A DNA stretch of 36,215 bases, taken from Syntrophomonadaceae bacterium. Lineage in GTDB: Bacteria; Bacillota; Syntrophomonadia; Syntrophomonadales; Syntrophomonadaceae. Below are positions 183 to 32,464 of the stretch, in pieces; the stretch's first letter is position 1; every line of letters starts with the position of its first letter. The notes under the pieces are model-generated. The model saw only the letters and a list, made by a program, of their open reading frames with translations. It made no database searches and was not told the DNA's origin. The stretch is taken from contig JAHDSE010000115.1 in the NCBI GenBank assembly GCA_018432955.1, positions 1 to 36,215 on the forward strand. The letters are read 5' to 3'. A program made the translations under genes and the position numbers.

Positions 183-232
183 TGGTGGAGACGATGGGAT
201 TCGAACCCACGACCCCCTCGTTGCGAACTAGG
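183..232 (-). pseudogene. tRNA-Ala (CGC) 3' fragment, likely attachment site
   Basis: On the minus strand this stretch reads as the 3' part of a tRNA: anticodon stem and loop TTCGCAA (anticodon CGC), a five-base variable region, a T arm with loop TTCGAAT closed by GTGGG/CCCAT, the 3' acceptor strand CGTCTCC, discriminator A and CCA. A U at position 70 fits the G3-U70 alanine identity pair. The D arm and 5' acceptor strand are absent and the 5' anticodon strand has one mismatch. Elements that integrate in tRNA 3' ends leave such a fragment at the distal junction with its 5' side facing the element, which here means the element lies to the right. It could instead be an attP core on a circular form. 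Confidence 0.75.
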
Positions 233-5761: not shown

Positions 5762-6028
5762 TTGAAAAAAACAATATGTTGTATGAAAAAAGGAAACCAC
5801 ATAATATATGAGACTGAACAAGCCGGGAAAATAGTACATCGAAAAGGCATTATCGTGGAGAACCATCGAGATTTCTATGTGGTTGCTATAGGTAGTAAGT
5901 ATAAAGAGGTATTGCGTAAAAATACTGAACATCGGGCTTTTGTATATCATATTGGGGGCAAGGCAGCACCTAAAAAGAAGCCTAAAAAGCAAAGAAATGG
6001 AGGTATAACAAATGACGCTTGTAAATGA
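5762..6028 (+). CDS. Small basic protein before the recombinase
   Basis: An 88-residue protein with a TTG start at 5762 after AAAGGAGGTGAT. It has two early cysteines (T-I-C-C-M), a probable beta-rich core (GKIVHRKGIIVENHRDFYVVAIG) and a lysine-rich tail (KKKPKKQ). It overlaps the recombinase gene by 17 bases. The small size, basic tail and coupling to an integrase would fit an accessory DNA-binding or excisionase-like role, but no family was recognised. Confidence 0.6.
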   Translation: MKKTICCMKKGNHIIYETEQAGKIVHRKGIIVENHRDFYVVAIGSKYKEVLRKNTEHRAFVYHIGGKAAPKKKPKKQRNGGITNDACK

Positions 6029-6821
6029 TTTTCTGAATGATTTGACACGCAGAGGCTATTCTCGTAATACGATTCGGAGCTATGGGTATGCCCTAAAAAA
6101 CTTAGATTGCGACATAGAAAATGCTACTACTGCTGATATAATGCAAGCTCTGTCTCAGGATTGGAAAACAAGTACAGCAGCAGCCAGGCAAGCAGCTATA
6201 AAGTCTTTTTTCGGCTGGCTCCAAGATACTGAAAGAATAAAACATAATCCGACAGATGGAATAGGCAATATCCGTTTGCCGGATTCTCTTCCCAGGCCAA
6301 TTCCTGAAACAGATTTAGAGAAGATTTTTCTTAAAGTAAAAACCTACCCGCTAATACCAAGAACCTACTTCTTTCTGCTAAGGGATATTGGTTGTCGTGC
6401 AACTGAAGGCATCAGCCTTGATGTAGAGGATATATCCTGGGAAAAAGGACAGGAGTCTATTCGTATTAAAGGCAAGGGCAACCGGGAGCGGATAGTACCC
6501 TTTGATTGGACTATGGATTGTGCTCAACACCTAAAAAGGCTATGTAACCAGCAAAAAACCGGGCCTTTGTTTGTGTCACAGCGCAAGGAGAGAGCAAGCT
6601 ATTTTTGGGCTTACTATTGGTGGGATAAAACAATGACCGCTTGTGATATGGACTACACAATCCATCAGCTCCGGCATACTGCTATAACAAACTGGGTAAA
6701 TTCTGGGATAAACCTAATGGCAGTACGAAGGCTTGCAGGGCACCGTCTACTGCAAACTACTGAAAGATATACTCAGATTTCCACCGATGACTTGAGAAAA
6801 GAATTGCAAAAAACACAATAA
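6012..6821 (+). CDS. Tyrosine recombinase (XerC/D-like)
   Basis: A 269-residue site-specific recombinase. The N-terminal core-binding SAM-like domain spans about 1-85. The catalytic domain has the full set: R129 (C-R-A-T-E-G), the beta-hairpin lysine at about 155 (I-K-G-K-G-N), H218-x-L-R221-H222, H244 (L-A-G-H) and nucleophile Y253 (T-E-R-Y-T-Q). Such enzymes cut and rejoin DNA at attachment or dimer-resolution sites. It is short, lacks the arm-binding domain of large phage integrases, and lies 5.8 kb from the tRNA fragment rather than beside it, so it may resolve plasmid multimers or integrate the element at the tRNA. A promoter for the next unit starts just after its stop. Confidence 0.92.
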   Translation: MTLVNDFLNDLTRRGYSRNTIRSYGYALKNLDCDIENATTADIMQALSQDWKTSTAAARQAAIKSFFGWLQDTERIKHNPTDGIGNIRLPDSLPRPIPETDLEKIFLKVKTYPLIPRTYFFLLRDIGCRATEGISLDVEDISWEKGQESIRIKGKGNRERIVPFDWTMDCAQHLKRLCNQQKTGPLFVSQRKERASYFWAYYWWDKTMTACDMDYTIHQLRHTAITNWVNSGINLMAVRRLAGHRLLQTTERYTQISTDDLRKELQKTQ

Positions 6822-6827
6822 AAGCTA

Positions 6828-6855
6828 TTGACATATTATTTTACAATGGTATGAT
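6828..6855 (+). promoter_or_regulatory. Strong sigma-A-type promoter
   Basis: Perfect -35 TTGACA at 6828-6833, 16-base spacer ending in TGG, and -10 TATGAT at 6850-6855 with an extended -10 TG. It should start transcripts near 6862 and drive the HD-GYP and topoisomerase genes. Confidence 0.85.
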
Positions 6856-6861
6856 ATTGAT

Positions 6862-6966
6862 AGTTGCAAAGGGCGAAGCTATGCCCTTATCCAGAATAAA
6901 AGATGTGTAAAAACATTATACTGGGAATTATAGTATAAAGACCTATTAATGGGTCTTTATTTTTTT
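6862..6966 (+). ncRNA. Structured leader with terminator (attenuator candidate)
   Basis: The leader holds AAGGGC/GCCCTT (6869-6874 with 6883-6888), TTATACT/AGTATAA (6916-6922 with 6932-6938), and a terminator AAAGACC/GGTCTTT (6937-6943 with 6952-6958) followed by a T run. The second stem shares two bases with the terminator stem. The order promoter, folded RNA, terminator, gene is that of a riboswitch or attenuator. I could not match it to a known class, including c-di-GMP-I, despite the c-di-GMP gene downstream. Confidence 0.55.
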
Positions 6967-6992: not shown

Positions 6993-7535
6993 ATGAACAA
7001 TAAAATATATAGGATATTTGCCGGTACACCAGGACTTTTAGAACATTCATTCAATGTTGCGTTTTTCGTTCGACAAATAATTGATGCTATGCCTGATGGC
7101 CTTGTATCGACAACACAAGCACAGGATTTGATTTTTGCTGCGATGTACCATGATGTTGGAAAAAGTACATGGCATGGCGAATGGTTTACAGCTCCAAGAC
7201 ATCAAATCAGGAACGTAGACTGGACAATAATGCAAACGCACCCGATACAATCGGTAAATATCCTGAATGAAATCGGAATACCGATAACTGAAGGAACCAA
7301 AAAATATATACTAGAACACCATGAACGCCCTGGAAAAATGGGATACCCAAACAATATCGAGCCGGATTTCTACAGCCAGATCATTTCTGCAGCAGACATA
7401 TTCTGTGCCTGTACTGAGCCTCGTTCCTACAGGCCGTATCCTTTGGATACAGGGCAAGCACTTCGAGAAGTAGTTAAGTATGCTCCAGAAATGATTGTGG
7501 ATGCCCTGAAATTTGTGGCTAAAAAAATTGCGTAA
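6993..7535 (+). CDS. HD-GYP-type phosphodiesterase
   Basis: A 180-residue single-domain protein with ATG after TGGAGG. The metal-binding HD pattern is visible: H18, H53-D54 (Y-H-D-V-G-K), H83 (T-H-P), H109-H110-E111 and D135 (A-A-D-I-F). The run HHERPGKMGYP is the HD-GYP signature, so the likely reaction is hydrolysis of cyclic di-GMP to pGpG or GMP. There is no sensory or membrane domain, so the protein is cytosolic. A GGDEF cyclase lies on the same element at 28890. It is first in a unit with topoisomerase III behind a strong promoter and structured leader. Specificity for another cyclic dinucleotide or nucleotide cannot be excluded. Confidence 0.85.
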   Translation: MNNKIYRIFAGTPGLLEHSFNVAFFVRQIIDAMPDGLVSTTQAQDLIFAAMYHDVGKSTWHGEWFTAPRHQIRNVDWTIMQTHPIQSVNILNEIGIPITEGTKKYILEHHERPGKMGYPNNIEPDFYSQIISAADIFCACTEPRSYRPYPLDTGQALREVVKYAPEMIVDALKFVAKKIA

Positions 7536-7547
7536 GGAGGAATTATT

Positions 7548-9617
7548 TTGAAAACACTTATAATAACTGAGAAGCCCAGTGTGGCGATGGATATAGGTAA
7601 AGTGCTGGGAGGATTTTCCCGGCACGATGGTTTTCTGGAGAAAGATAACATGATACTTACTTGGGCTATAGGACATTTAACTGAGCTTGCCATGCCACAG
7701 GACTATAATCCAGCACTGGAGAAGTGGAATATTGATACTTTGCCGATACTACCGGAATTTAAACTAAAAACAAAAACTGCTACTAAAAAGCAACTTAATA
7801 TTATCAAATCTCTTATAAATCGCAAAGATATAGACAGGCTGATAAACGCCTGTGATGCTGGCCGGGAAGGAGAACTTATATTCAGAAATATCATCCAATT
7901 TCTAAATTGTCGCAAACCCCATGACCGTCTCTGGCTTTCGGAGACCACTCCTACTGCTATCAAAAATGCTTTTTTGAACCTTCGTACTTCTGCTGAAGTA
8001 GAGAATTTGGCTCGTGCTGCTACTGCCAGAAGCCAGGCTGATTGGATAGTTGGCATAAATGCTACCAGAGGCTATACTGTAAAACATAACGAAAAAATGA
8101 CTGTAGGCAGGGTACAGACACCCACTCTGGCCTTGATAGTAAATCGAGATAGGGAAATTGAAGGTTTTAAGTCTGTTCCGTATTTTGAGATTGAAGCTAA
8201 GTTTGAAGCCAGGGGTGACACATATAAAGGAAAATGGTTCCGGGACAAGCAAGATAGATTTTCTGCTAAGGCAGAAGCAGAAGTAATACAAAGTAAACTA
8301 ACACCTGGATCTCCTGCACAAATAGTAAAGGTAGAACAAAAAGAGAAAACAGAACAGCCGCCTATACTATATAATTTGACTGATCTACAAAAAGAAGCAA
8401 ACAAAAGATACGGTTTTACTGCCGAGGAAACCCTTAATACTGCCCAAAAACTCTACGAAAATCGCCTCTGTACCTATCCACGCACAGATAGTAGGCATCT
8501 TACGGAGGCTATGGCTGCTACCCTACCAGCTAGGTTAAATGCACTCAGGAGGACAGAATTAGGGCCAATCGTAAACAGTATTACTGATGCCAGTATAACT
8601 AGCAAGCGGTATGTAGACGATAGCAAGGTAACAGACCACACCGCTATAGTCATAACAGAGGTATCGCCAGATTTATCCAACTTAACCGAAAACGAAACCA
8701 AAATATATTTTTTAATTGCAAAACGCATGGTAGGTATATTTCTGCCAGCGGCAAGAATCCAGCAGACTACAATAATAACTGCTTGCCAGGATGAGACTTT
8801 TGTGACGAAAGGCAAGGTTTTGCTGGAAGCTGGCTGGAAGGTACTATATGCTACTGATGCTGATGATATCCTGCCAGTATTGGCAGAAGGCCAGAAAATA
8901 ACTTTGGAGAACGCCGATATCCTGGATAAACAAACCCAGCCTCCTAAAAGATATGCTGAAGCTGATTTGCTTTCTGCGATGGAAAATGCCGGGCGACAGA
9001 TTGAAGATGAAGCTATGCGAGAAGCGATGAAGGGTAAAGGACTGGGTACTCCTGCAACCAGGGCAGCAATAATAGAAAAGCTAATAAAAACAGGATATAT
9101 AAAACGGCAAAAGAAAACTCTAATAGCCACAGATAAAGGAAAAGCCTTGATTGATATAGTTACACCAGCAATTAAAAACCCTGAAATGACTGGAGAATGG
9201 GAAAAGAAACTTCTGGATATAGAACAAGGTAAATGCCATGCAAGCCTATTTATGCAAGAAATTATAAAATTTGCTGAAAATATAGTTGATGAAATAAAAC
9301 AGGCTCCTGTAAGCGATTTTAAGGCCCTTGAAAACGCTAAAGCGAGTATTGGGTCGTGCCCGATATGTAAAAGCCCTGTAATCGAAAATAAGAAGGCATA
9401 TGGCTGTTCTGCCTGGAAACAAGGCTGTAAATTCGTAATTTGGAAACAAATTGCTGGCAAAAAAATAAGCCAGGCGCAAGCAAAGAAAATAATGGAGGGA
9501 AAAAGCGATTTAATGAAAGGCTTTATGTCAAAAAAAGGAAATAAATTTGATGCTTATTTAAAACTGGATGGGGACAAAATTGTATTTGAGTTTCCAGTAA
9601 AAGTAGCTAAAAGATAA
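7548..9617 (+). CDS. topB: DNA topoisomerase III
   Basis: A 689-residue type IA topoisomerase with a TTG start after AAGGAGG. The TOPRIM domain has E8 (I-I-T-E-K-P-S) and the acidic triad in DAGREGE at 103-109. The nucleophilic tyrosine is Y310 in RLCTYPRTDSR. The C-terminus from about 580 has a zinc-ribbon-like unit (C-P-I-C, then C-S-A-W-K-Q-G-C) and the short repeat seen in plasmid TopB. These enzymes pass single strands to unlink DNA and are frequent on conjugative Gram-positive plasmids, where they help in replication or transfer. Length is normal and it appears intact. It starts 12 bases after the HD-GYP gene. Confidence 0.96.
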   Translation: MKTLIITEKPSVAMDIGKVLGGFSRHDGFLEKDNMILTWAIGHLTELAMPQDYNPALEKWNIDTLPILPEFKLKTKTATKKQLNIIKSLINRKDIDRLINACDAGREGELIFRNIIQFLNCRKPHDRLWLSETTPTAIKNAFLNLRTSAEVENLARAATARSQADWIVGINATRGYTVKHNEKMTVGRVQTPTLALIVNRDREIEGFKSVPYFEIEAKFEARGDTYKGKWFRDKQDRFSAKAEAEVIQSKLTPGSPAQIVKVEQKEKTEQPPILYNLTDLQKEANKRYGFTAEETLNTAQKLYENRLCTYPRTDSRHLTEAMAATLPARLNALRRTELGPIVNSITDASITSKRYVDDSKVTDHTAIVITEVSPDLSNLTENETKIYFLIAKRMVGIFLPAARIQQTTIITACQDETFVTKGKVLLEAGWKVLYATDADDILPVLAEGQKITLENADILDKQTQPPKRYAEADLLSAMENAGRQIEDEAMREAMKGKGLGTPATRAAIIEKLIKTGYIKRQKKTLIATDKGKALIDIVTPAIKNPEMTGEWEKKLLDIEQGKCHASLFMQEIIKFAENIVDEIKQAPVSDFKALENAKASIGSCPICKSPVIENKKAYGCSAWKQGCKFVIWKQIAGKKISQAQAKKIMEGKSDLMKGFMSKKGNKFDAYLKLDGDKIVFEFPVKVAKR

Positions 9618-9990: not shown

Positions 9991-10315
9991 AAAAGAAGTT
10001 ATCTTCCAGAGAATCCAATCCAAGCTCCGAGAAAGACTCCGTTGGAGATTGCTCTGGATATTGACGATGAGGAAATGACTACAGCAAGAAAATAAATTCC
10101 TTTTCCCAGATGACAAAAACACTTCGAACTATTCCAGATGGGTACGCAAGAATATCGAACAGAATATTTTTGCCGAGTTTGGCGAAGACTATTTTTCACT
10201 CGTCATATATGACGAGTGGCGAAATTCTGGGATCCGAGGGCATTTTGCAAGGGATTATAAAATCACCAGCTCCTTTGCAAAGAAACTTGCTATGGCATCT
10301 CAAACCGAATACTGA
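9991..10315 (+). pseudogene. Broken AntA-type phage antirepressor
   Basis: Two reading frames together give an AntA domain. From 9991 the frame reads YLPENPIQAP then TPLEIALDIDDEEMTTARK, and stops at TAA 10093-10095. One frame over, from about 10097, it reads FLFPDD, NYSRWVRKNIEQNIFAEFG, EDYFSLVIYDEW, and RDYKITSSFAKKLAMASQTE to TGA at 10313. The usual family order (LEIALGID, TARKLYEFL, NYSRW, FAKKLAM) is kept, with a few bases lost between R-K and F-L. The domain is cut off after about 105 residues. It is probably an inactive relic of a phage-like regulator and contains a perfect 22-bp palindrome. Confidence 0.75.
10197..10218. repeat. Palindrome copy 1 (perfect, 22 bp)
   Basis: The arm CACTCGTCATA is followed immediately by its exact complement. 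Flanks (GAAGACTATTTTT before, GCGAAATTCTGGG after) match the flanks of the palindromes at 14589-14664 in reverse orientation, so these are related copies. Confidence 0.8.
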
Positions 10316-10392: not shown

Positions 10393-11157
10393 ATGAATTT
10401 TGCTATTGAGAGCGAACAAATGTACCAAATTATCCGGCAGAATCGGATAGTTCGAACATGGATTGGTGGTGTAGAAAAACTGGATGAACCTACATGGATA
10501 GTGAGTTTCCCAGAATATCCGTTCTTTCGAGGATTGATTCCACTATCGGCGTCTGGTGTGGATGAGCGGCTAATGTATGCTATGGTAGGCCAACAAATCT
10601 GGGTAACAGTAAAGGGACTTGATGCTGAATCCGAGATAGTAGCGTGTAGTCGGCAGGAAGTTCTTGAAAAAGTAAGTGAGCAGGTAATGTCTAGGATAGA
10701 GGTAGGAAAAATAATTTCTGCAACCACAATAGCCACAGTATACCGAGAAAACAAACCTTTTCTGGTGGTAGATATTGGACAGGGAATATTCTTCGAGATT
10801 CCCAGGAGCAAGGCAGCAATATGCTACACAAAACCTTTGCGTGACCAGTACCGGCCAGGACAAACAGTAAACTGCAAGGTATTGGCTACTGATCCGCTAA
10901 ATCTTTCTATTCGGGATGCGCGTCCTAATCCCTGGGTAAGAGCCAATTTTCGGCGTGGCAGTATAATTTCTGGAACTGTATATGTAGTTCAGGACGAAAA
11001 AGTTTTTGTCGAACCGGATTTATGTATGGGTATCCTCGGCCTGGCTCCTATTCCGCTGCGTGGCGATATTGCCCGTGGAATGAGAGTCTCCTGCCGTGTG
11101 CGGTTTTTTGATGCTGAAAAGAGAAAACTGCACCTCTGGCTTGTAAATCGTTTGTAG
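10393..11157 (+). CDS. S1-domain RNA-binding-like protein
   Basis: A 254-residue protein behind AAGGAGGT. It appears to hold three consecutive OB-type units: about 15-90, 95-165 (VGKIISATTIATVYRENKPF) and 182-252. The last is the most S1-like: FRRGSIISGTVYVVQDEKVFVE, then GILGLAPIPLRGDIARGMRV and VRFFDAEKRKLHLWL. S1 domains bind single-stranded RNA, as in ribosomal protein S1. Here one might act on plasmid mRNA or on the structured RNAs downstream. That link is only positional. There are no membrane segments. The next gene starts eight bases after its stop. Confidence 0.75.
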   Translation: MNFAIESEQMYQIIRQNRIVRTWIGGVEKLDEPTWIVSFPEYPFFRGLIPLSASGVDERLMYAMVGQQIWVTVKGLDAESEIVACSRQEVLEKVSEQVMSRIEVGKIISATTIATVYRENKPFLVVDIGQGIFFEIPRSKAAICYTKPLRDQYRPGQTVNCKVLATDPLNLSIRDARPNPWVRANFRRGSIISGTVYVVQDEKVFVEPDLCMGILGLAPIPLRGDIARGMRVSCRVRFFDAEKRKLHLWLVNRL

Positions 11158-11738: not shown

Positions 11739-11762
11739 AATATAAAAAAAATTCTAAAACTG

Positions 11763-11794
11763 TTGAATTTTGAAATGGGATATGATAATATAAT
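11763..11794 (+). promoter_or_regulatory. Promoter of the small RNA upstream of the retron
   Basis: TTGAAT at 11763-11768 stands 15 bases before GATAAT (11784-11789), inside the -10-rich run that also contains TATAAT (11789-11794). Either hexamer could serve. The first would start RNA at about 11796, matching the first base-paired stem. Confidence 0.55.
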
Positions 11795-11993
11795 GGCAAC
11801 TATTATTTTTCTATCAGCTTTTTGCTGATTTGCCTACTTTGTAGGAATTAGTTGCCTTTATTGGTTGTGTTTTAAATTTGCCGTATTATACGGTTGTGTA
11901 AAAGCCGATTTTTGTGAGTTTATAGCTTGCAGATTCGGCTTATTTGTTTTTCTGGAGAGTTTTCAATATTGTATTGAGGACTCCTTTTTTTTT
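11795..11993 (+). ncRNA. Candidate small RNA upstream of the retron genes
   Basis: This 200-base noncoding stretch has a promoter at one end and a terminator at the other. GGCAACTA (11795-11802) pairs with TAGTTGCC (11849-11856) and encloses two hairpins: ATCAGC-TTTTT-GCTGAT and CCTAC-TTT-GTAGG. Further hairpins are CCGTA/TACGG (11881-11893) and AAGCCGA/TCGGCTT (11902-11941), then the terminator. The word GGTTGTGT occurs twice. A TTT-loop hairpin recalls retron msr stems, but the terminator separates it from the reverse transcriptase, so it may be a separate regulatory RNA. No known family was matched. Confidence 0.6.
11954..11993 (+). terminator. Terminator ending the small RNA
   Basis: GGAG (11954-11957) with CTCC (11981-11984) and TCAATA with TATTGA form a stem with a TTG loop and two G-T pairs, followed by nine T. 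Confidence 0.75.
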
Positions 11994-12013
11994 ACAAGAA
12001 AGGAGGAAAATGT

Positions 12014-12079
12014 ATGTATGCACTTGTGTTGGTAGGGACTATTGTATACTTAGCTATCAAAACTTGGATAGCTGGATAA
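12014..12079 (+). CDS. 21-residue membrane peptide before the retron leader
   Basis: ATG 12014 stands seven bases after AGGAGG and opens a 21-codon frame to TAA at 12077. The peptide is almost entirely hydrophobic (A-L-V-L-V-G-T-I-V-Y-L-A-I), followed by K-T-W-I-A-G: one membrane helix with a positive end. An earlier ATG at 12010 is only three bases from the SD and reads out of frame into the leader. Peptides of this type include membrane toxins and small regulators. Its placement between a small RNA and the retron RT makes a role in that system possible but unproven. Confidence 0.6.
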   Translation: MYALVLVGTIVYLAIKTWIAG

Positions 12080-12274
12080 CGTCTCATCCTGGCTTGTGCT
12101 CTGGAGGTTCCGTGCGTTTCGCCGGACATACTGTTGATAGAGCGCATAATAGACGACTTCGAGGCCTACACTGCCTGATACTACGGCTTCGCCTACGTAT
12201 CATTTCCGTTTCGGCCACTCCGTCTCATGCAGGATTTTTTTTCTGAGGATAGGCTGTACTAAGGTACAGCCTAT
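12052..12274 (+). ncRNA. GC-rich structured leader of the retron RT (candidate msr-msd)
   Basis: The segment is visibly richer in G and C than its surroundings and has many hairpins: AGCTATC/GATAGCT (12053-12073), TCCG-T-GCG with TTT loop and CGCCGGA (12109-12126), TGATAC/GTATCA enclosing GGC-TTC-GCC (12176-12202), CCG-TTT-CGG (12206-12214), and long-range ATCCTG (12086-12091) with CAGGAT (12230-12235). CGTCTCAT appears at both ends. ATAGGCTGTAC/GTACAGCCTAT (12249-12274) closes it before the SD. Retrons encode their template RNA just upstream of the RT, and TTT-loop stems are typical of msr. Exact msr, msd and a1/a2 limits could not be fixed by eye. Confidence 0.6.
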
Positions 12275-12297
12275 TACTATTTTAAGGAGGTATTTAT

Positions 12298-13572
12298 ATG
12301 CAAATAGTACAAATATCTAAACGTAACGGCAAATATAGGACGATATATATGCCAAACCCCGAGGAAAAACGGGAGTTGCGGGGCATAGTAGGAGAACTAA
12401 ACAAAAAACAAAAGAGGATGTGTGATGCTTCTGTCGTGCATGGCTTTATGCCGGGAAAATCGCCAGTAACCAATGCCATGCAGCACATAGGCCACGCATA
12501 TACCATGAGCTTTGATTTAGAAAATTTTTTTGATACTGTGACTCTTGAACGGGCACAACATTTATCCAAAAAAGAGAAAGAGAAATGCTTCGTGGACGGA
12601 GCCGCCAGGCAGGGACTTCCGACAAGTCCAGCAGTAGCAAATCTAGCGGCGACGGTATTGGACAAAGCAATTTTAAAATGGATTCAAAAATCTGGCAAAA
12701 ACATAGTATATACGAGATATGCGGACGATTTGACTCTTAGCCTTGATGATCCGCAACTGATTCCATTAATAAAAGCTAAAGTGCCAGAAATTGTAAAGCG
12801 GAGCGGTTTTGTAATAAACACAAATAAAACTACTTGCCAGGCCGCAAAATATGGCAGAAGAAAAATTTGCGGAATAGCAGTAGATGACCACGGGATATAT
12901 CCCGCAAGGGAGACAAAACGCAGACTACGAGCCGCTAAACACCAAAAACACCACCGAGAAGCTCATGGGCTGGAAGAGTGGTGCAAACTGAAGCCGCCGA
13001 AAGAAAATAAAGTATCGAATATAGAAAATATCGAGGATTTGCGGAAACATTGGAAAATCCGCAAAATTGATTTTGAGAGAACCTTGAGAAACAAGATACA
13101 ACAAGAGGCTGAGTTGGGCGATGATTGCTATATAACAAATGACCCTGCCTATTTTCTAGGCATGAGCACTTTTACCACCGGCTGGACTTCCTGTATGGCA
13201 CAGCCTTCGGGACAGTACCGTAAAAGTGTAGTTGGATGGTTGGCACTCCCCGGAACCAGTATAGCTTGTTTGCTGTCGAAAAAAACTAAGGCTATTGCGG
13301 GGGTGGAGCGCAGACAAATGAGAGCTAGATGCCTTGTCCATCAGATGAGAGATGGAGCCAGATACTACGACAGGCTTTACGGCAATCCAAATGACACGCC
13401 AATTCTTGTTAAAAAATTGGAAACAATTGGGATAAGGCCAATACAAGAAGCTGAAGGAAAAGAAGTAGTAGGATATATTCCAGCTACTATGCTTAAGCCG
13501 TATCTGGATAATCTGAAATCTAAAATTGTCCAAATGAAATCTGGCAAAGAAATGCGAAAATTATATATTTAA
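12298..13572 (+). CDS. Retron-type reverse transcriptase with extra C-terminal domain
   Basis: A 424-residue protein behind AAGGAGGT. Residues 1-235 are a retron RT: HGFMPGKSPVTNAMQH with the retron NAxxH signature (59-63), SFDLENFFDTV (motif 3-like), RQGLPTSPAVANL (104-116), the catalytic YTRYADDLTLS with YADD at 141-144, and a late motif KICGIAV where retrons have VTG. The tail from about 250 is not part of a normal 300-350-residue retron RT. It contains TTGWTSCMAQPSGQY (293-307), LALPGTSIACLLS and RCLVHQMRDGARYYDRLYG (344-362), and I do not recognise it. It may be a fused effector or an RNA-binding extension. Retrons make a hybrid RNA-DNA molecule and mostly act in phage defence. Confidence 0.88.
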   Translation: MQIVQISKRNGKYRTIYMPNPEEKRELRGIVGELNKKQKRMCDASVVHGFMPGKSPVTNAMQHIGHAYTMSFDLENFFDTVTLERAQHLSKKEKEKCFVDGAARQGLPTSPAVANLAATVLDKAILKWIQKSGKNIVYTRYADDLTLSLDDPQLIPLIKAKVPEIVKRSGFVINTNKTTCQAAKYGRRKICGIAVDDHGIYPARETKRRLRAAKHQKHHREAHGLEEWCKLKPPKENKVSNIENIEDLRKHWKIRKIDFERTLRNKIQQEAELGDDCYITNDPAYFLGMSTFTTGWTSCMAQPSGQYRKSVVGWLALPGTSIACLLSKKTKAIAGVERRQMRARCLVHQMRDGARYYDRLYGNPNDTPILVKKLETIGIRPIQEAEGKEVVGYIPATMLKPYLDNLKSKIVQMKSGKEMRKLYI

Positions 13573-14508: not shown

Positions 14509-14664
14509 TTTCCCGTTCGTCATGTATGACGAGCGGGAAATAATCTACTTCTTCTTCTGCAAACTGCCCACGAACCCCAAAATTTCGGCACTCGTACTTT
14601 GGTACGAGTGAAAAATAATCTTCACTTTCTGCATCAACTCGGCACTCGTACTTCGGTACGAGTG
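14509..14664 (-). repeat. Palindrome array with AntA-like coding
   Basis: Three hairpins lie here: TTTCCCGTTCGTCAT with its complement (14509-14540, one G-T pair), CACTCGTAC/GTACGAGTG with TTTG loop (14589-14610), and the same stem with TTCG loop (14643-14664). Read on the minus strand, one open frame from about 14690 to 14467 gives EDYISLVPKYECR, EDYFSLVPKYECR and VDYFPLVIHDER, similar to EDYFSLVIYDEW of the AntA relic at 10100-10230. The frame is offset from the adjacent XRE gene. The loop-proximal bases differ between copies yet stay paired, which points to selection on the palindrome itself. Confidence 0.7.
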
Positions 14665-19950: not shown

Positions 19951-20919
19951 TTGAAGATAGCAGTAGACGTAGGGTACGGCCACACAAAAGCCATGAATGA
20001 ACATGGGAGGAAGATTTCTTTTCCTTCCCTGGTTGCACCGGGAGGCCAAAATTTAGGGCTTAAAGAAATGTTTGGGAATACACCTGAATATCAGGTGTCA
20101 ATTACTACTGGTTCCAGTCAGGAAAATCTCCTAGTGGGAGAAGCAGCAAAACAATCTTTTGTTGCAACGCAAATATTATCTCAAAAAAAGCCAAAAGAAT
20201 TTCACGATCCACTATTGCTTACAGCAGTTCATCTATTGGAAGAAAATGACAATTGTAATGAAATTGCTGTAGGATTACCGCTTGCTTATTATGCGAACCA
20301 AAAAGAGGCACTCGAGAAACGGTTAAAATCCCTAAATGCCTATGTATCTATACAGGAGTTTCAAAAATATATCAGTTTTTCTCATGTACAGGTTATCCCG
20401 CAAGGTGCAGGAGTTTTATTTGTTTGTTCGGAAATATTGCCAGAGAATGGCTTTATCGGAGTCGTGGATATAGGAACATATACTACAGAGTATTTGCTTT
20501 TCCAACTCAAAAAAGGCAAACCTATCCCGGTTTTGGAGGCTTGTGGCTCTGTAGAGACAGGAGTACATCTTGTTTATTCGGCTATCAGCCGGGAATTCCA
20601 AACCCAAACAGGAAGTCCGTTGCCTACAGAAATGGAGTCCTATGTAGTAGAAAAAACTCTCAACGGCGAACCGGTTTCTTACAATGGCAAGAAATATGTA
20701 CTTACTCCCAAAGCCATAGAATCTCGCAAACAAATAGCATCAGCTATTTCGCAGAAAATACTTGCCGCCTGGGGGAATCGTACAGGGCATTTAGATACTA
20801 CTTTATTAGCCGGAGGCGGGAGTTTGTTTTTCGAAAAAGATATCACGCAGTTCCCAAATCAACATATCGTTTCCGACGCGGTTTTCGCAAATGCAAGCGG
20901 GTATTTAGCTTTATTATAG
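19951..20919 (+). CDS. ParM-like plasmid segregation actin
   Basis: A 322-residue actin-fold ATPase with a TTG start after AAAGGAGGA. The phosphate 1 loop is VDVGYGHTKA (4-13), phosphate 2 VVDIGTYTTEYLLF (about 172-185), and the adenosine motif LLAGGGSLFF (near 290). The length and the AGGGS motif match ParM/Alp-type plasmid proteins, whose filaments push plasmid copies apart. A partner (ParR) and centromere are expected nearby: the RHH protein at 22256 with the CCGGTA repeats before it are the candidates. An M23 peptidase gene lies between, which is unusual for a par operon. Confidence 0.88.
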   Translation: MKIAVDVGYGHTKAMNEHGRKISFPSLVAPGGQNLGLKEMFGNTPEYQVSITTGSSQENLLVGEAAKQSFVATQILSQKKPKEFHDPLLLTAVHLLEENDNCNEIAVGLPLAYYANQKEALEKRLKSLNAYVSIQEFQKYISFSHVQVIPQGAGVLFVCSEILPENGFIGVVDIGTYTTEYLLFQLKKGKPIPVLEACGSVETGVHLVYSAISREFQTQTGSPLPTEMESYVVEKTLNGEPVSYNGKKYVLTPKAIESRKQIASAISQKILAAWGNRTGHLDTTLLAGGGSLFFEKDITQFPNQHIVSDAVFANASGYLALL

Positions 20920-24429: not shown

Positions 24430-24444
24430 TTATTGAAAGGAGTG

Positions 24445-25380
24445 ATGTATATTGCAATCATAAAGATTTTCAGAACACAAAACTCAGGGAACTTGCTTCG
24501 ATATTGTGGTCAGCAAAAAAAAGTTGGTTGGACATCGGCAATCAATGTAAATCCTAAAACAGCACAAAAAGAATTCCTTACTACCCGAAAACTTCACAAT
24601 AAAACTAAAAACACTCAGGCTTTTCACCTAATTCAGTCCTTTCATACTTCGGAGAAAATATCACCGAAAGAAGCAAACTCAATCGGTTACAAACTGGCAA
24701 AATCTATTCCAGGCAATTATGAGATTGTTATCTATACTCACACCGACCGAGGTCACATCCACAACCATATATGCATAAATTCAGTTGATTTTATGACCGG
24801 CAAAAAACTACATCAGACTAACTTTAAAAAAGGCGGAGGGAAAAAACCTGGGGACGTAAATCTGATTGACATTAAGAAAGAGTCCGACAGACTTTGTCGT
24901 GAGAAGGGTTTATCAACTATATTGGATCGAACTTCAAGGAAAAGAATCACCACAGCAGAACTTAAATTAGGCGAAAAATCGTGGAAGATGGATCTAAGAG
25001 CAGCAATCGATCAAGCCAGGCTTAACAGTAAAAATCTTTCAGAAATGAAAGCCAAGTTAAGAGTTGAAGGCATCGAAATGAATGTACGAGGGAAAAACCT
25101 CACATTTAATCATCCAGCAATAAAAAAGAACATTCGGGGCAAATCATTAGGGGCAGATTATACCAAGACTGCAATAGAAAGTAGTCTACAATCCAAACCA
25201 GAACCAACGGCATTTAAAAAACTCAAAGAAATTCGCTTGCAAATGATAAAGGAAACAGATCTGGGCAAGAAAGCTGAATTAGAAAAGCAATTTACAATTC
25301 AGAAACAAGTCCTGGAAGAATCCAGGCAGGAAAATTTGAACCGGCTTACTAAAGAGCCGGAAATAGAAAGGGAGAGGTGA
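24445..25380 (+). CDS. MobA/VirD2-family relaxase
   Basis: A 311-residue relaxase. The metal site HTDRGHIHNHICIN (about 99-112) is the HxDxxHxHxH motif, and Y20 (NLLRYC) is the likely nicking tyrosine that becomes linked to the DNA 5' end. After about 180 the protein is basic and helical (RTSRKRITTAELKLGE). ATG 24445 is only two bases from AAAGGAG. An ATT at 24451 has ideal spacing and would begin (M)-A-I-I-K-I-F as in many relatives, so a rare ATT start is possible. Its stop is two bases before the next start. It nicks oriT to begin transfer. Confidence 0.93.
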   Translation: MYIAIIKIFRTQNSGNLLRYCGQQKKVGWTSAINVNPKTAQKEFLTTRKLHNKTKNTQAFHLIQSFHTSEKISPKEANSIGYKLAKSIPGNYEIVIYTHTDRGHIHNHICINSVDFMTGKKLHQTNFKKGGGKKPGDVNLIDIKKESDRLCREKGLSTILDRTSRKRITTAELKLGEKSWKMDLRAAIDQARLNSKNLSEMKAKLRVEGIEMNVRGKNLTFNHPAIKKNIRGKSLGADYTKTAIESSLQSKPEPTAFKKLKEIRLQMIKETDLGKKAELEKQFTIQKQVLEESRQENLNRLTKEPEIERER

Positions 25381-25382
25381 TT

Positions 25383-25943
25383 ATGCAGGTAGATTATGAA
25401 AAACTGGCAAATGAATGTAAAGCTAAAAGAACGAATTTAGAATGGAAGTTTGCATCAAAAGGGCTGTTAGATCATTTTAAAAAAGACTCAAATAGTTGGA
25501 ATCAAATCAAACAGCTTAAACAACTTGAACAGCAGGAAAAGAAATATCGTGAACTTGCAGAACAGCAAAAGCAAAAGAATTTCGAAAGAACTGAAAGACA
25601 GAAAAGGCAAGAAAATCGTAAAAATCGGCAGAGATATTATAACGAAGACAGAAAGGATAAGAAAAACGAAAAGATACCTACACATCAGCAAAAAGAAAAA
25701 GAAATTAATCGTGAAGCTAAAGAACGAAAAAACATGAACTCATTTGGGCAGATGGTAGCTACTCGAGAGAAAATAAACAAAACCACAGATCCACAACAAA
25801 AGAAAAAACTAGAAACGCAATTTGCAAAACACCAAAAAAATTGGCAAAAAGAAGTAGATGTTAAAGTCCAAAAATCTCAGGGACAAAACCTTGCCAAAGG
25901 TATCGGGAAAGCAGCAGAAAAAATTATGGAAAGAGGAAGGTAA
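25383..25943 (+). CDS. Highly charged coiled-coil protein
   Basis: A 186-residue protein from ATG 25383 with AGGGAGAGG ahead. It consists largely of Lys, Glu, Gln and Arg in long helices (IKQLKQLEQQEKKYRELAEQ), with no hydrophobic segment. It resembles a detached relaxase tail and stands between the relaxase and the coupling protein, so it may bridge DNA-bound relaxosome and VirD4-type protein. That role is inference. The stop is one base from the next start. Confidence 0.75.
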   Translation: MQVDYEKLANECKAKRTNLEWKFASKGLLDHFKKDSNSWNQIKQLKQLEQQEKKYRELAEQQKQKNFERTERQKRQENRKNRQRYYNEDRKDKKNEKIPTHQQKEKEINREAKERKNMNSFGQMVATREKINKTTDPQQKKKLETQFAKHQKNWQKEVDVKVQKSQGQNLAKGIGKAAEKIMERGR

Positions 25944-25944
25944 G

Positions 25945-27615
25945 ATGGCAAATCATGGCGAACCACTTAATTTTTCTCAAATTGCCCGCTTATGTTGGCA
26001 GATATTTATGTTGCCAGTCCGAATAATTGCCTGGGTCAATAAGAAAATTGCCCCAGGCATACCTTTGTCTGGATTATCATTATATATTGCGTTATTTGTT
26101 ATAGACTGTTTACTAGGATTGCCATTCATTTTATTTAGTGCATCTGGTAACCCTGACTTCTTTCTAACAGAAGCAGTATCTTTATTTACTATCTATCCTA
26201 TTTTTGTTTTTGCTGCAATTGCATACGGAAACCGCTCTCTTAAAGAGCGACACCGAAAATCACCATTAGGGCAACAGCGGTTTGCTAACCTTATAGATGC
26301 AAAAAATGCAGACCTAGTTAATTCGCAACCAGATATGGTTTTAGGATTAATGGATAAGCAAATAATTGGCCCTCAAGAATCAGACTGGCACTCAATCCTA
26401 ATTGGAGGTCAAGGTTCAGGAAAAACAACCTGTGGTATTATCCCAACGCTGTTAAGTTTCCCGGGTAGTGCAGTTGTATTCGACATCAAAGGAGAATTAT
26501 ACAATGCAACAGCAGAGCAACGCAGGCAATATGGAAATGTAATCGTAATCAATCCTACTAAAGCAGACACATGGAGATACAACCCATTATCAGCCTGCGA
26601 TCCTACACCAGAAGGTATTATTGAATGTCAGGAGTTTGGACGTTCTCTTATTCCAGATCCACCAGGTGGTGCAGGCCAAAATCAATGGGTCATTGATGGC
26701 GCAAGAGCACTTACCTCGGCACTGGCTTATATTTCTGCCGTAGAAGACGGGACAATCTTTGATTTGGTTATGAGAATGACCAGCGCAGAAACCAGAAGAG
26801 ATGAGGAAGGTAAAATAATTCCTGGGCATGAGGTTATAGCGGAATCAATATCGGAATCGGATGAGACTGCAAGATTATTCGGTGGTGGTTTTGTATCCTC
26901 AGACCAAAAAACACGTGGGTATTATATTTCCAATGCAAGCGATTTTCTAAGAACATTTGCATTAGATTTTGAGATTCGAAACTGTACCACACCACTTCCA
27001 GGAAAAACATTCACCTTTGATATGCTGGAAGAAGGGACTACAGTATATTTACAAATACCTGAAGCTAAACTCAAGCAATCGGCTGATTTGTGGAGATTAA
27101 TTTTCATGCAGTTGTTGAGACACTTACAGGCCCGGGGTGAAAGAAAGCAACCACATATTTTAGTGTGTTTAGATGAATTTCCACAACTCGGGAAAATGGA
27201 TCAACTTCCAGAAATGCTGGCAACACTCCGCAGTCGGAATGTCCATGTTATGTTAGCAGGACAGTCAATTGCGGATATTGATGAAAAGTACAAGGACGTT
27301 ACCAGACGCAGAATTATTGACAACTGCAACTATATATCTATCTTCAATTCAACAGATCCGCAAGGGCAGAAATATTTTTCGGATATGATAGGGCAGCAAA
27401 CTATTATTACCCGTAGTGGAGGCCGTGGCTCAAATTCATCAGATTCGGGTAGTGGGGGCCGTAACCAAAGTCAAAACTGGCAAGAGTCAGGACAGCCACT
27501 TATCAGGCCGGAGGATTTAAGGAATTTAGGAAATAACGTTATAGTCATAGCACGGGAGACTTGGCCGATGAAGTTAGAAAAAGCATTTTTTAAGAATTTA
27601 AAAACCCTGGTTTAA
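25945..27615 (+). CDS. VirD4/TraG-type coupling protein
   Basis: A 556-residue protein from ATG 25945, one base after the previous stop. Two membrane helices lie at about 45-66 and 78-95. Walker A is IGGQGSGKTT (153-162) and Walker B ILVCLDEFPQLGKMD (near 405-419). A glycine/serine-rich segment (GGRGSNSSDSGSGG) lies near residue 500, before the C-terminus. This family links the relaxosome to the type IV secretion channel and drives DNA export. No other channel ATPase is in the window, so the element either carries its channel elsewhere or borrows one. Confidence 0.95.
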   Translation: MANHGEPLNFSQIARLCWQIFMLPVRIIAWVNKKIAPGIPLSGLSLYIALFVIDCLLGLPFILFSASGNPDFFLTEAVSLFTIYPIFVFAAIAYGNRSLKERHRKSPLGQQRFANLIDAKNADLVNSQPDMVLGLMDKQIIGPQESDWHSILIGGQGSGKTTCGIIPTLLSFPGSAVVFDIKGELYNATAEQRRQYGNVIVINPTKADTWRYNPLSACDPTPEGIIECQEFGRSLIPDPPGGAGQNQWVIDGARALTSALAYISAVEDGTIFDLVMRMTSAETRRDEEGKIIPGHEVIAESISESDETARLFGGGFVSSDQKTRGYYISNASDFLRTFALDFEIRNCTTPLPGKTFTFDMLEEGTTVYLQIPEAKLKQSADLWRLIFMQLLRHLQARGERKQPHILVCLDEFPQLGKMDQLPEMLATLRSRNVHVMLAGQSIADIDEKYKDVTRRRIIDNCNYISIFNSTDPQGQKYFSDMIGQQTIITRSGGRGSNSSDSGSGGRNQSQNWQESGQPLIRPEDLRNLGNNVIVIARETWPMKLEKAFFKNLKTLV

Positions 27616-27959: not shown

Positions 27960-28814
27960 TTGAAACTAGGAAAAGTTTTGTTAGGTATTGCTATGTCAAC
28001 CTTTTTATTGTTTTTGGTGTTGGCAGGAGTTAATTTTGATGGTATTACTCTCGCACTTATATGGACGCTTATTATTGTTGGAGTTGCATGGATTACTGCC
28101 ATAATTAAGTCTAACAACAGTGTCGAAAGCTATGTTAAGTCAGTTGGGGGACAGCCTATTACTGAAGGTTTTATACTAGATATGGTTTATACTCTAGCAG
28201 CAAAAGCCGGATTAGAAAATATGCCGCAAATTGCATGGGTTAACAGCAAAGTCATTAACGCATTTGCAATCGGTACTCCAAAAAAATCTGCTATAGTCTT
28301 TTATGCAGGAATTATTGAAAACCTCAGTAGAGATGAGTTATCAGCTATTATCGGCCATGAAATTACACATATCGTAAATAACGACTGTACCACTCGTATA
28401 GCTGTACTTACAGCAATACAAGGCATCACATATGTTATTTTAGCACCTATATATTTAGCTGGATATTTTATGATGTGGATTAGTCCATCGGCAGCAAACA
28501 TGATTGCAGGATTAACCAATATCGCAATAAAGATTACTGGAACCTTATTTGGATTTGTAGGACAGCTTTCAAGTTTGAAATATTTTCGAGAACAAGAATA
28601 TGCCGCTGATGTTGGAGCAGCTAATTTAACATCTCCTGAGTTAATGGCATCAAGTTTATCTAAACTTGATGCCTGCATCAAAAATCAGCAAGTTGAAAAC
28701 CCTGTTATAGCTGCTCTTTGTATATACAACCCGCTTTCAGCATTTGGAGAATTTTTTTCTACACATCCTAGTATCCAAAATAGAATCAAAGCACTTAATC
28801 GAAAAGACTTCTGA
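27960..28814 (+). CDS. HtpX-like M48 membrane metalloprotease
   Basis: A 284-residue protein with a TTG start after AAAGGAGGA. Two N-terminal membrane helices (about 5-23 and 30-48) are followed by the zinc motif HEITH at 133-137, two more helices (about 150-200) and the third ligand region FREQEYAADVGAA (about 214-226). This is the HtpX pattern. Such proteases degrade misfolded membrane proteins. The order and length fit the family. Presence on a mobile element next to secretion-related genes suggests quality control of its membrane proteins. Confidence 0.93.
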   Translation: MKLGKVLLGIAMSTFLLFLVLAGVNFDGITLALIWTLIIVGVAWITAIIKSNNSVESYVKSVGGQPITEGFILDMVYTLAAKAGLENMPQIAWVNSKVINAFAIGTPKKSAIVFYAGIIENLSRDELSAIIGHEITHIVNNDCTTRIAVLTAIQGITYVILAPIYLAGYFMMWISPSAANMIAGLTNIAIKITGTLFGFVGQLSSLKYFREQEYAADVGAANLTSPELMASSLSKLDACIKNQQVENPVIAALCIYNPLSAFGEFFSTHPSIQNRIKALNRKDF

Positions 28815-28833: not shown

Positions 28834-28859
28834 AGCCCGCTTAGGCGGGCTTTTTTTTA
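28834..28859 (+). terminator. Intrinsic terminator
   Basis: AGCCCGC and GCGGGCT with a TTAG loop, followed by eight T. Confidence 0.9.
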
Positions 28860-28889: not shown

Positions 28890-29753
28890 ATGCAGGAAGA
28901 ATTATTGGAAAATATTATAAATAAGATTGAATCTATAAGTACAGCTATGGAAGAATTAAAAAATAAAGCACAGAATGATCCACTTACAGGGCTGTATAAT
29001 CGGGAGTTTATGGAAGATTGGCTTGAAATTCAGTTTGCTCAGGGAGAGAATTTTGCTATAGCATTTTTAGACCTGGATAAATTCAAATCCGTCAATGACA
29101 CTTACGGCCATGCCGCAGGTGATGCGGTATTAACCCAGTTTTCAGCTTTCTTAAAAACCCAAGTAAGAAAATCAGATGTTGTAATACGGTACGGTGGAGA
29201 AGAAATTATTGTAGGATTGCCTAGTACAAACTTACAGGCAGCCACAAACCTAATAGAGAAAATTCGCCAACAATGGGAACAAACCGACATATCTATATCG
29301 CTTGAAACAAGCATCAGAGTTACTTTTTCAGCAGGAGTCGCTGACTACAAGACAGCAAAAAAAGAAATCGTGAAAATTGCAGATGAAATGGTCTACAAGG
29401 CCAAAGAGTCTGGCAGGAATCAGGTGTGTTCTGGCACGAAAATTAAACAGTCCAAAATTAAAACACAGACAAAAAACCAGCCTATTAACCAGTCTACTGC
29501 AACAACTATATCTGGAATTACAGTAGTAGCAGACGGTACAGCCACGATAGGGAATGTTGTAGGCTCAATTTTGGCTATTATATATCACCTACTTAGAACA
29601 GGCTTTTACTTATTATTACTGGCAGCACTTGTTGCGTTTGTGTTGTTCATTTCAGGCAAAGTTGCAGGAATATTCCCGGTTGAAAACAACTTAACCCAGT
29701 TTTTATTTAATGCTTCAGATGTTATAGGAAATTATGTGAACTACCTATTTTAG
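28890..29753 (+). CDS. Membrane diguanylate cyclase (GGDEF)
   Basis: A 287-residue protein behind AAAGGAGGA. Residues 1-28 are a coiled coil, 29-180 a GGDEF domain: DPLTGLYNREFM, FLDLDKFKSVNDTYGHAAGD and the active-site loop RYGGEEIIVG (GGEEI at 102-106). An inhibitory RxxD site (R93, D96) stands the canonical five residues before it. The usual F of GGEEF is I, a mild change, so activity is likely. A polar linker precedes a C-terminal membrane helix (about 235-262), an inverted order compared with most cyclases. It makes c-di-GMP. The HD-GYP protein at 6993 would remove it. The TM anchor may sense the membrane or transfer apparatus. Confidence 0.93.
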   Translation: MQEELLENIINKIESISTAMEELKNKAQNDPLTGLYNREFMEDWLEIQFAQGENFAIAFLDLDKFKSVNDTYGHAAGDAVLTQFSAFLKTQVRKSDVVIRYGGEEIIVGLPSTNLQAATNLIEKIRQQWEQTDISISLETSIRVTFSAGVADYKTAKKEIVKIADEMVYKAKESGRNQVCSGTKIKQSKIKTQTKNQPINQSTATTISGITVVADGTATIGNVVGSILAIIYHLLRTGFYLLLLAALVAFVLFISGKVAGIFPVENNLTQFLFNASDVIGNYVNYLF

Positions 29754-30159: not shown

Positions 30160-30237
30160 ATGAGGTGTAGAGCCAGTCCTAAAAATATATTATTTAAAGG
30201 AGTAATTCACAAAGGAGGAATGATTGATTTTGCGTAA
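30160..30237 (+). CDS. Possible 25-codon leader peptide
   Basis: ATG 30160 after AAGGGGGTGAT opens 25 codons (M-R-C-R-A-S-P-K-N) ending at TAA 30235, overlapping the start of the adhesin gene and covering its SD. Ribosomes on this frame would pass over the next ribosome site, so it may couple or regulate adhesin translation. It may also be chance. Confidence 0.35.
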   Translation: MRCRASPKNILFKGVIHKGGMIDFA

Positions 30238-32464
30238 AAAGATTTCGATTTTAATATTGTTTGCGTTTATGTTCTCATTATTCCCGGTTTCGGCGTTTGC
30301 GGCTGATATCACGGGATTAGAGATTATGGTTCCGCAAGCCATAATTAATTCTGGCGATACTATCCAAGCAACAGCAATTCTAAGATACGCTGATGGATCG
30401 ATTCAAGACGTATCTAATCAAGTTGTTTGGCAAAGCCAAGATGAAGATATTGCAAGTGTTAATGATAGTGGATTAATTACTGGTCAATACTGGTCAACAG
30501 GTGAAACAAGATTAGGAGTTGTATTTATTGATGCTATATATACGACTCCAACCTTTACCGTATTTTCTGACCAAATAAGAGTTCAACTTGTCTATAATGC
30601 TATTGATGATTATTATATTTATCCGAGCGGAGAATTATATATTTTAGAAGGGCAAACAATCCCAATTAAAGCACTGAAAAAAGATGGAACATTAAGTAAT
30701 GATATTACTATTAATCAACTTTCGGGCGATTTTTTTGTAATTAATCCTAATAACTCAATTACCGGAAACCAAGAGGAATATGGGGTATTTCAAATAACCA
30801 TGCCGGATGGAAGCAAGAAAGAATTAACTATTTTTGTTCGTACTAAAGGTCCATCTTCTTCTGCAGGAGGTCAGGCTTATTTTGAGTCTGCTATATCTTA
30901 TAGGCATTATAATATTAATCCAGCCTCTGAAGATAGTTTTTACAATTTACCAGCAAGCAAATTTGTTGTTGATCCAAGCAGAACTTCGCACCCTTGGACG
31001 TCCCTCTTAAATCCTTCTGGTACAGGGCCAATAGATGCTACTTTTGATATTGGCGAGACTAAAACATATTCGTACGATTTTAGTGGGTTCGACCATGGCA
31101 CAATTAAATTGTTTTTTGAATCTGAACCTGGGAGCCTAATCATAACTCCAGGCAAAGTAGAGAGTCCTGTAAATAATAAAAATATTTTTGAAGTTAGTCA
31201 TTACTCTAACACCCGCGGTAGAGGGGATATTCCAGTAAAAATTACCGCACCAATAGGCGATGCGCATAGAGCACGAATTGTTGTCGAGCTTTGGGATGAA
31301 AATGGATTACAATTCCGTGGATTCCAGCCATTATGTATTCATTCATTTACTGAATGTGATAATACTAACACCGATATACTCAGGTATAAAACGGGAAATG
31401 AGTGGGTAAAGGCCGTTCCGAATGAAGCCAGGAAAATAGGACAGACAGTACAATTACAAGCACAATACTTTTTTGCGGATGATAATAAGTTAGCTGATGC
31501 AACCGTTAAAGCACCTGCTGTTAATATGCCTGTAAAATGGACAATTAGTTCTGGTGAAGGTGTATTTACAAATAATACAACAACAATCACTACATTTACT
31601 GATAATAATGGGTTTGCAACTACAACATATACTCCTTCCACTAATGGACAAAACACTGTATGGGCAACCCCAGATTGGAATGACAAAAATAAATGGGTGA
31701 TGTCTAATCATATCAGTGCTGGTCCAAGCCGTATGCCTTTTGGCTGGTATATTAAGCCTATAGCTCAAGCACCACCTGCTCCAGCACCTACACCACCAGC
31801 ACCTACTCCAGCACCTGCACCTGCTCCAGCACCTGCTCCAGCACCTGCTCCAGAGTCAGAACCAGAACCTACTCCAGAGCCAGATTCTATACCAGAACCT
31901 GAGCCTGAACCAGTAACACCAGTCCCGACACCTGAACCAGTAGTCGAACCAGAATCAGCACCCCTGCCAGCACCAAAACCAGTAATTAAAAAGATAACTA
32001 AGAAAATACCTGAGCCAATCATTGGCACAGTAACAGGCATAATAAAGATGAAAGATGGCAAGCCGTTGACTAATGCGAGGTTAGAGCTACACTCAAAACC
32101 GCTCACAACTTATACCGACAGCAAAGGTTATTTTGAGTTTAACAATGTGCCACTTGGCGACCATAAACTATATCTTGCAGACCTTACAATTACCGATGTA
32201 AAAATACTAATTAAAACCCTGCAGGTAGCTACAGCAGATGAAACCAGATATATTCCTATCAGTAAAACCGTAAAAGACCTTGAAACTGCACAAGTAACCT
32301 TAACCGAAACCGATCCAGAAAAAGAAGTAGAAATGATAGTTGATTTTGAATTACCAGAAAAAGAACCTGAAAAGAAAACTCCTATATGGCCCTGGTTGTT
32401 GTTATTTTTATTGTTGCTGCTTATCCTAAGACGTAGACGTAAATTGAAACAGGAACAGCAATAG
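30224..32464 (+). CDS. Large surface-anchored adhesin-like protein
   Basis: A 746-residue protein. AAAGGAGG is followed by TTG at 30224 and at 30230, and either could start it. A signal peptide runs to about residue 26. Residues 28-115 are an Ig-like Big_2 domain (SGDTIQATAILRYADGS, then IASVNDSGLITG). A second Ig-like region lies near 395-500. About 510-590 is a Pro/Ala then Pro/Glu repeat stalk, followed by a carboxypeptidase-regulatory-like domain (VTGIIKMKDGKPLTNARLEL, GYFEFNNVPLGDHKL). A membrane helix and RRRRK end the protein without a visible LPxTG, so it is membrane-anchored. It could mediate mating-pair contact or attachment. Confidence 0.88.
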   Translation: MILRKKISILILFAFMFSLFPVSAFAADITGLEIMVPQAIINSGDTIQATAILRYADGSIQDVSNQVVWQSQDEDIASVNDSGLITGQYWSTGETRLGVVFIDAIYTTPTFTVFSDQIRVQLVYNAIDDYYIYPSGELYILEGQTIPIKALKKDGTLSNDITINQLSGDFFVINPNNSITGNQEEYGVFQITMPDGSKKELTIFVRTKGPSSSAGGQAYFESAISYRHYNINPASEDSFYNLPASKFVVDPSRTSHPWTSLLNPSGTGPIDATFDIGETKTYSYDFSGFDHGTIKLFFESEPGSLIITPGKVESPVNNKNIFEVSHYSNTRGRGDIPVKITAPIGDAHRARIVVELWDENGLQFRGFQPLCIHSFTECDNTNTDILRYKTGNEWVKAVPNEARKIGQTVQLQAQYFFADDNKLADATVKAPAVNMPVKWTISSGEGVFTNNTTTITTFTDNNGFATTTYTPSTNGQNTVWATPDWNDKNKWVMSNHISAGPSRMPFGWYIKPIAQAPPAPAPTPPAPTPAPAPAPAPAPAPAPESEPEPTPEPDSIPEPEPEPVTPVPTPEPVVEPESAPLPAPKPVIKKITKKIPEPIIGTVTGIIKMKDGKPLTNARLELHSKPLTTYTDSKGYFEFNNVPLGDHKLYLADLTITDVKILIKTLQVATADETRYIPISKTVKDLETAQVTLTETDPEKEVEMIVDFELPEKEPEKKTPIWPWLLLFLLLLLILRRRRKLKQEQQ

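Follow-up and report, generated by a model that had tools for sequence, protein, structure and literature searches.

The stretch of DNA analysed here, which we call the window, is one whole contig of 36,215 bp from a 2.0-Mb metagenome-assembled genome that is 67% complete. We rejected circularity of the contig, as its termini do not overlap. An HD-GYP gene and a GGDEF gene lie among the following features:

183-217, minus strand: tmRNA-like gene, 3′ end only (Rfam tmRNA at 21.1 bits and E 1.7e-6, under the gathering score)
6012-6821, plus strand: tyrosine recombinase, candidate integrase (Pfam Phage_integrase; homologue near the HD-GYP/ALP pair in locus L084)
6828-6855, plus strand: promoter-like site, TTGACA-16-TATGAT with a TG extension (11/12 consensus matches; consensus match only)
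6935-6960, plus strand: intrinsic-terminator-like hairpin between the promoter-like site and the HD-GYP start codon
6993-7535, plus strand: stand-alone HD-GYP protein, 180 aa, predicted c-di-GMP phosphodiesterase (Pfam HD/HD_5, ligands, fold, tree)
7548-9617, plus strand: topB, DNA topoisomerase III (NCBIfam DNA topoisomerase 3, 727 bits)
10393-11157, plus strand: S1-domain protein, recurrent on related elements (similar-looking protein in locus L015)
19951-20919, plus strand: actin-like (ALP/ParM-type) protein (Pfam ALP_N and MreB-like_C; homologues directly adjoin HD-GYP on related elements)
24433-25380, plus strand: MobA/VirD2-type relaxase (Pfam Relaxase)
25858-27615, plus strand: VirD4/TraG coupling protein (Pfam T4SS-DNA_transf)
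27960-28814, plus strand: M48 membrane metallopeptidase (Pfam Peptidase_M48), flanked by the coupling-protein and GGDEF genes
28834-28851, plus strand: terminator-like hairpin directly ahead of the GGDEF gene
28890-29753, plus strand: GGDEF diguanylate cyclase with I-site and C-terminal transmembrane tail, without a sensor domain (Pfam GGDEF, 142.8 bits; motifs, hydropathy)
30224-32464, plus strand: surface protein; Big_1/Big_2-like and carboxypeptidase-regulatory-like domains (a homologue lies close to the HD-GYP/ALP pair of locus L083)
34486-35661, plus strand: BspA-type leucine-rich-repeat surface protein (Pfam LRR_5)

Judged by its gene content, the window belongs to an integrative, at least mobilizable element that encodes both enzymes. 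Its features include a tyrosine recombinase, a MobP-type relaxase, a coupling protein, TopB, a ParM-like actin and an apparent attachment site at a tmRNA end. The tmRNA 3′ end occurs once in the window and is the only element end seen; since it lacks the 5′ part, it probably represents the copy of the attachment site that marks the element's left end. Mating-channel genes (VirB4-type ATPase) were absent from the window ORFs scanned with Pfam, and because the contig ends in an insertion sequence, such an ATPase may lie beyond it. At that end, the stop of a secreted-protein frame at 36111 is followed from ~36143 by an IS3-like orfA, read by eye, and the contig ends inside the insertion sequence. 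No relative of the coupling protein was found in 63 genomes of the order at E 1e-30. The recombinase, relaxase and coupling protein confirmed an earlier, sequence-only reading of this DNA, which had placed both enzymes on one mobile element. That reading also rightly put them close to genes for topoisomerase and transfer: 12 nt separate the HD-GYP stop codon from the start of topB, and the GGDEF gene lies 1.3 kb beyond the end of the coupling-protein gene.

Several other features of the window were recorded. A retron-type reverse transcriptase of 424 aa (12298-13572) scored 130 bits against NCBIfam retron_St85 (cut-off 235) and matched many PADLOC retron reverse-transcriptase models, without a recognised partner; the unannotated stretch upstream of it (11740-12297) could hold an msr/msd RNA. 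Two intergenic stretches share an inverted pair of 66 bp at 80% identity (10184-10249 and 14558-14623). The leucine-rich-repeat protein contains internal repeats that are nearly identical (96% over 114 bp) and possibly recombine.

The same reading had described a stand-alone HD-GYP protein at 6993-7535, and this was borne out by frame, Pfam matches, ligands and fold. The 180-aa frame is intact and preceded by a good Shine-Dalgarno sequence. It matches Pfam HD (44.4 bits) and HD_5 (43.8 bits) above both cut-offs, and at ~44 bits is far more divergent than the eleven other HD_5 matches of the genome (102-137 bits). All seven metal-ligand positions are present (H18, H53/D54, H83, H109/H110 and D135), as are K57 and the GYP of residues 117-119. 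Ligands, K57 and GYP did not vary in an alignment with relatives (9/9), and H18, H53/D54, K57, H83 and H109/H110 were unchanged across a further 24-row alignment. Position 115, in the HHExxxGxGYP loop, is K in the window protein versus a nearly invariant G in most relatives. To our knowledge this G is common without being a defining catalytic residue; K115 nevertheless calls for caution, as it would weaken the claim of activity, not the family assignment.

The AlphaFold model showed a confident HD-GYP fold (mean pLDDT 94.7), and its Foldseek matches at E <= 0.001 were HD-GYP/HD phosphodiesterase structures. The top match was DvhD (9rbz), an HD-GYP domain with c-di-GMP bound, followed by PA4781 and PmGH. 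In a phmmer alignment, neither the HD nor the HH residues are present in the DvhD sequence, and DvhD may therefore be a binding protein and not an enzyme. This match speaks for the fold and a plausible ligand of the window protein, not for catalysis. V-cGAP3 (PDB 5z7c), which acts on 3′3′-cGAMP, was found by sequence and weakly by fold. Sequence and predicted fold are thus compatible with several cyclic dinucleotides; from these and from context, we infer that the protein is active and that its substrate is c-di-GMP. It resembles the HD-GYP phosphodiesterases PmGH (4mcw), PA4781 (4r8z) and DvhD (9rbz) in fold, in the HD...HHE...GYP motifs and in metal-ligand positions. It is unlike them in standing alone at 180 aa, in belonging to a separate clade found on mobile elements, and in its shortened loop after GYP, a Trp after the HDxGK motif and K115.

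HD-GYP and topB are very likely co-transcribed, given the 12-nt spacing and a topB ribosome-binding site that overlaps the HD-GYP stop codon. The leader ahead of the HD-GYP gene folds better than shuffled sequences (z = -3.15). The hairpin within it may end the integrase transcript or be an attenuator.

The second enzyme had been read as a membrane GGDEF protein with an intact I-site, and this too held up. The 287-aa protein is intact and carries the motifs DPLTGLYNR, DxDxFKxxNDxxGHxxGD, RKSD-x5-GGEE and KxxGR. The I-site RxxD (RKSD, residues 93-96) lies at the correct spacing, five residues ahead of GGEE; the fifth motif residue is an unusual I (GGEEI). The sole hydrophobic segment spans residues ~226-265, near the C-terminus, which points to a C-terminally anchored, sensor-less cyclase. 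The gene starts 38 nt after the strong terminator-like hairpin. Its closest matches in 63 genomes of the order and 399 of the phylum aligned over the GGDEF domain and hardly further, so the C-terminal tail appears particular to this protein; most of these matches are parts of much larger proteins. At the thresholds used, no relative with the same tail was found in either set.

We then placed the HD-GYP protein among its relatives. Proteins of 180-220 aa related to it occur in another genome of the same order and in other Bacillota. In a maximum-likelihood tree, 10 small HD-GYPs including the window copy separated from 22 ordinary HD-GYPs with support 100/99. A 55-row tree, built from matches reported at the thresholds used, recovered a small HD-GYP clade of 28 members (support 100/100) apart from the ordinary HD-GYPs sampled. 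Clade members share the metal ligands and mostly an HHERPGGxGYP loop. The plasmid-collection matches examined were rejected as close relatives, being larger, ordinary HD-GYPs. A single-sequence search of IMG/VR found no close relatives of the window protein. On three IMG/VR contigs classed as viral (L054, L055 and L056), helicase and HNH genes precede an HD-GYP gene of the clade; in L054 and L056 HDIEK replaces HDxGK. At another locus, a protein that by appearance is an Abi-type abortive-infection protein (L077:371-1078) adjoins an HD-GYP of the clade.

The existence of this clade bears on whether the two enzymes matter to the element at all. Both could be ordinary host signalling genes that it acquired, with no function for it, as hosts have many HD-GYP and GGDEF genes and the GGDEF gene looks unique to this element. 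We consider such neutral cargo the least probable of the explanations, because the HD-GYP protein belongs to a clade of its own, rarely met in fused, large form, and is found again in many genera with order and orientation unchanged.

The neighbourhoods of the relatives revealed a recurrent partner. The HD-GYP gene adjoins an ALP gene in three genomes (G062, G137 and G260) and at other related loci. Among 113 genomes of a related Bacillota order (that of G353), 17/35 small HD-GYPs had an ALP_N match within 3 kb, compared with 0/19 large ones (Fisher p = 1.3e-4, which overstates the evidence because related genomes are treated as independent); these counts rest on matches reported at the thresholds used and on a small/large split at 260 aa chosen after the matches were seen. 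All 17 linked pairs were co-directional; 14 lay within 1 kb and the HD-GYP gene came first in 16. About half of the small HD-GYPs in this order are thus without an ALP at that distance, and some appear to be chromosomal (G353, G483). At four loci (L083, L088, L015 and L036) the HD-GYP frame overlaps that of the ALP. In the window itself, 12.4 kb separate the two genes.

Stand-alone HD-GYPs adjacent to ALP genes also occur outside the clade (G003, G055 and G544/G454/G394), suggesting repeated recruitment of HD-GYP. The filament-linked label required 12 changes on the tree, and the starred branches force at least 8. In G172 a protein with the tubulin/FtsZ-type signature GGGTGTGS, read by eye, occupies the position of the ALP (L037:10913-12274). 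TopB directly adjoins an HD-GYP of the clade in the window, G236 and G476. The 83 neighbouring proteins from seven related loci, read in stretches of up to ~20 kb, again include homologues of TopB, the S1 protein, the ALP and the coupling protein of the window, and surface proteins with PKD/Big/CARDB-like repeats also recur beside HD-GYP relatives. No GGDEF protein was found among these 83; in G353, in a setting that looks chromosomal, a receiver-GGDEF gene lies ~1 kb from the HD-GYP gene. Going by these gene neighbourhoods, the degrading enzyme appears to be the recurrent component on related elements and the cyclase looks like a local extra.

The presence of an ALP_N actin on a mobile element is shared with ALP/ParM-type plasmid segregation loci, which differ from the present elements in that an HD-GYP gene is a recurrent neighbour here and on the relatives. 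We tentatively suggest that a stand-alone HD-GYP and an actin (or tubulin-like) filament form a recurring operon of Bacillota mobile elements, recruited more than once, that would link cyclic-dinucleotide turnover to the way the element segregates or to its life cycle. Tight co-directional pairing, overlapping frames, apparent repeated recruitment and the tubulin-like replacement would also suit an HD-GYP protein that binds or regulates the ALP/TubZ-type system and is not a signalling enzyme, with c-di-GMP at most a ligand. We judge this very unlikely: the HD-GYP proteins retain their catalytic ligands throughout, topB is directly adjacent in the window, G236 and G476, and ordinary ParM systems function without an HD-GYP protein.

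Cleavage of another substrate was also considered. By degrading alarm cyclic dinucleotides (3′3′-cGAMP or similar) of host immunity such as CBASS, the HD-GYP protein might shield the incoming element. HD-GYP enzymes can act on 3′3′-cGAMP, as V-cGAP3 does, and clade members occur on contigs classed as viral. Counter-defence is nonetheless quite unlikely, since the adjoining genes are maintenance genes and not known anti-defence genes, and c-di-GMP is the ligand bound by the closest structure. The program padloc, whose library holds models of defence and not counter-defence, gave the HD-GYP protein only a marginal match to a Cas3 HD domain.

The sequence-only reading had proposed that the element sets host c-di-GMP to favour attachment during transfer, by analogy with the cyclases of SXT/R391 elements. 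Cyclases on SXT/R391 elements and other islands alter biofilm and motility (PMC10672970). Genes for c-di-GMP turnover are found on 6-10% of plasmids, and plasmid GGDEF proteins raised biofilm and conjugation (reviewed in PMC10333796); cyclases on transmissible plasmids are likewise reported to raise conjugation (PMC10672970, PMC10333796). The present element resembles SXT/R391 elements with dgcK/dgcL in its integrative, possibly conjugative setting and its diguanylate cyclase (PMC10672970). It is unlike them in its relaxase and coupling-protein families, in a recurrent enzyme that degrades c-di-GMP, and in phylum. The coupling protein matched CD1115/VirD4 models best and scored 40 bits against SXT_TraD (cut-off 366); together with the relaxase, this led us to reject the element as an SXT/R391 relative. 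The SXT/R391 family integrates in prfC; the one end seen here bears the 3′ end of the tmRNA-like gene. What stands of the analogy is a cyclase on a mobile element; the recurrent enzyme is opposite in sign.

A closer precedent is the necrotic-enteritis locus of a Clostridium perfringens conjugative plasmid, for which a review describes a cyclase/phosphodiesterase pair (PMC10333796, its ref. 84). As described there, the likeness is that of both enzymes on one Bacillota mobile element. Since mobile pairs of this kind are already known, finding the two enzymes together on an element is in itself no novelty. We know of no actin linkage of the C. perfringens pair, and it is the HD-GYP-actin pairing that looks new. 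In a literature search that lay outside most subscription journals, we found no paper on a stand-alone HD-GYP with a segregation actin, and none joining HD-GYP with Desulfotomaculum and integrative elements.

The surface adhesins had been put forward as a natural output of c-di-GMP on the element. This part of the reading lost ground, as the window has no visible sensor: no c-di-GMP riboswitch was detected in it at the Rfam gathering threshold or at E up to 2, and no PilZ domain. The genome's two PilZ matches lie on other contigs. With these and 12 HD_5 matches, the host probably uses c-di-GMP, and host effectors could reasonably mediate a global effect. The frequency of surface proteins around HD-GYP relatives leaves room for an effect on adhesion.

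An element that uses its cyclase mainly to raise host c-di-GMP, with adhesins and aggregation favouring transfer and the phosphodiesterase resetting the level afterwards, would account for both enzymes, several surface proteins and transfer genes on one element. The reported effects of SXT/R391 and plasmid cyclases on biofilm, motility or conjugation (PMC10672970, PMC10333796), and the PKD/Big/CARDB-like surface proteins beside HD-GYP relatives, point the same way. We regard this account as unlikely, since GGDEF is missing from the 83 neighbours and its tailed form from the order and phylum genomes at the thresholds used, riboswitch and PilZ are missing from the window, and the conserved partner has the opposite activity. 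Of the proposal on attachment, two enzymes with catalytic motifs on a mobile element and phenotypes reported elsewhere stand; its direction does not fit a recurring phosphodiesterase, which would lower c-di-GMP.

The explanation we prefer, in which we place about even confidence, is that the 6993-7535 protein is an active, sensor-less c-di-GMP phosphodiesterase serving its mobile element, that the GGDEF protein is a later addition and that degradation is the conserved function. The HD-GYP subfamily would be expressed with maintenance genes of the element, topB here and the ALP actin on related elements; it would therefore be made when those are on, and the c-di-GMP level of the carrier cell would fall. 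The GGDEF protein, added later and membrane-anchored beside the transfer region, would make c-di-GMP locally. Together the two could let the element move host c-di-GMP either way, with degradation as the conserved direction. Since the cyclase was seen on this element only, a joint purpose of the pair remains a proposal.

The small HD-GYP clade is, as far as sequence comparison indicates, a little-described family that repeatedly adjoins plasmid actin genes on related elements. Control of c-di-GMP by mobile elements has so far been reported mostly as extra cyclases promoting biofilm. If our explanation is true, the pairing of a conserved, element-borne phosphodiesterase with the segregation actin would imply that lowering the signal is in the interest of some elements, and that this is linked to how they replicate or are maintained. 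HD-GYP and ALP make a compact two-gene system for testing. If the activity targets another cyclic dinucleotide, the clade could be a counter-defence enzyme family; on the explanation we prefer, degrading c-di-GMP may be a standing function of related elements.
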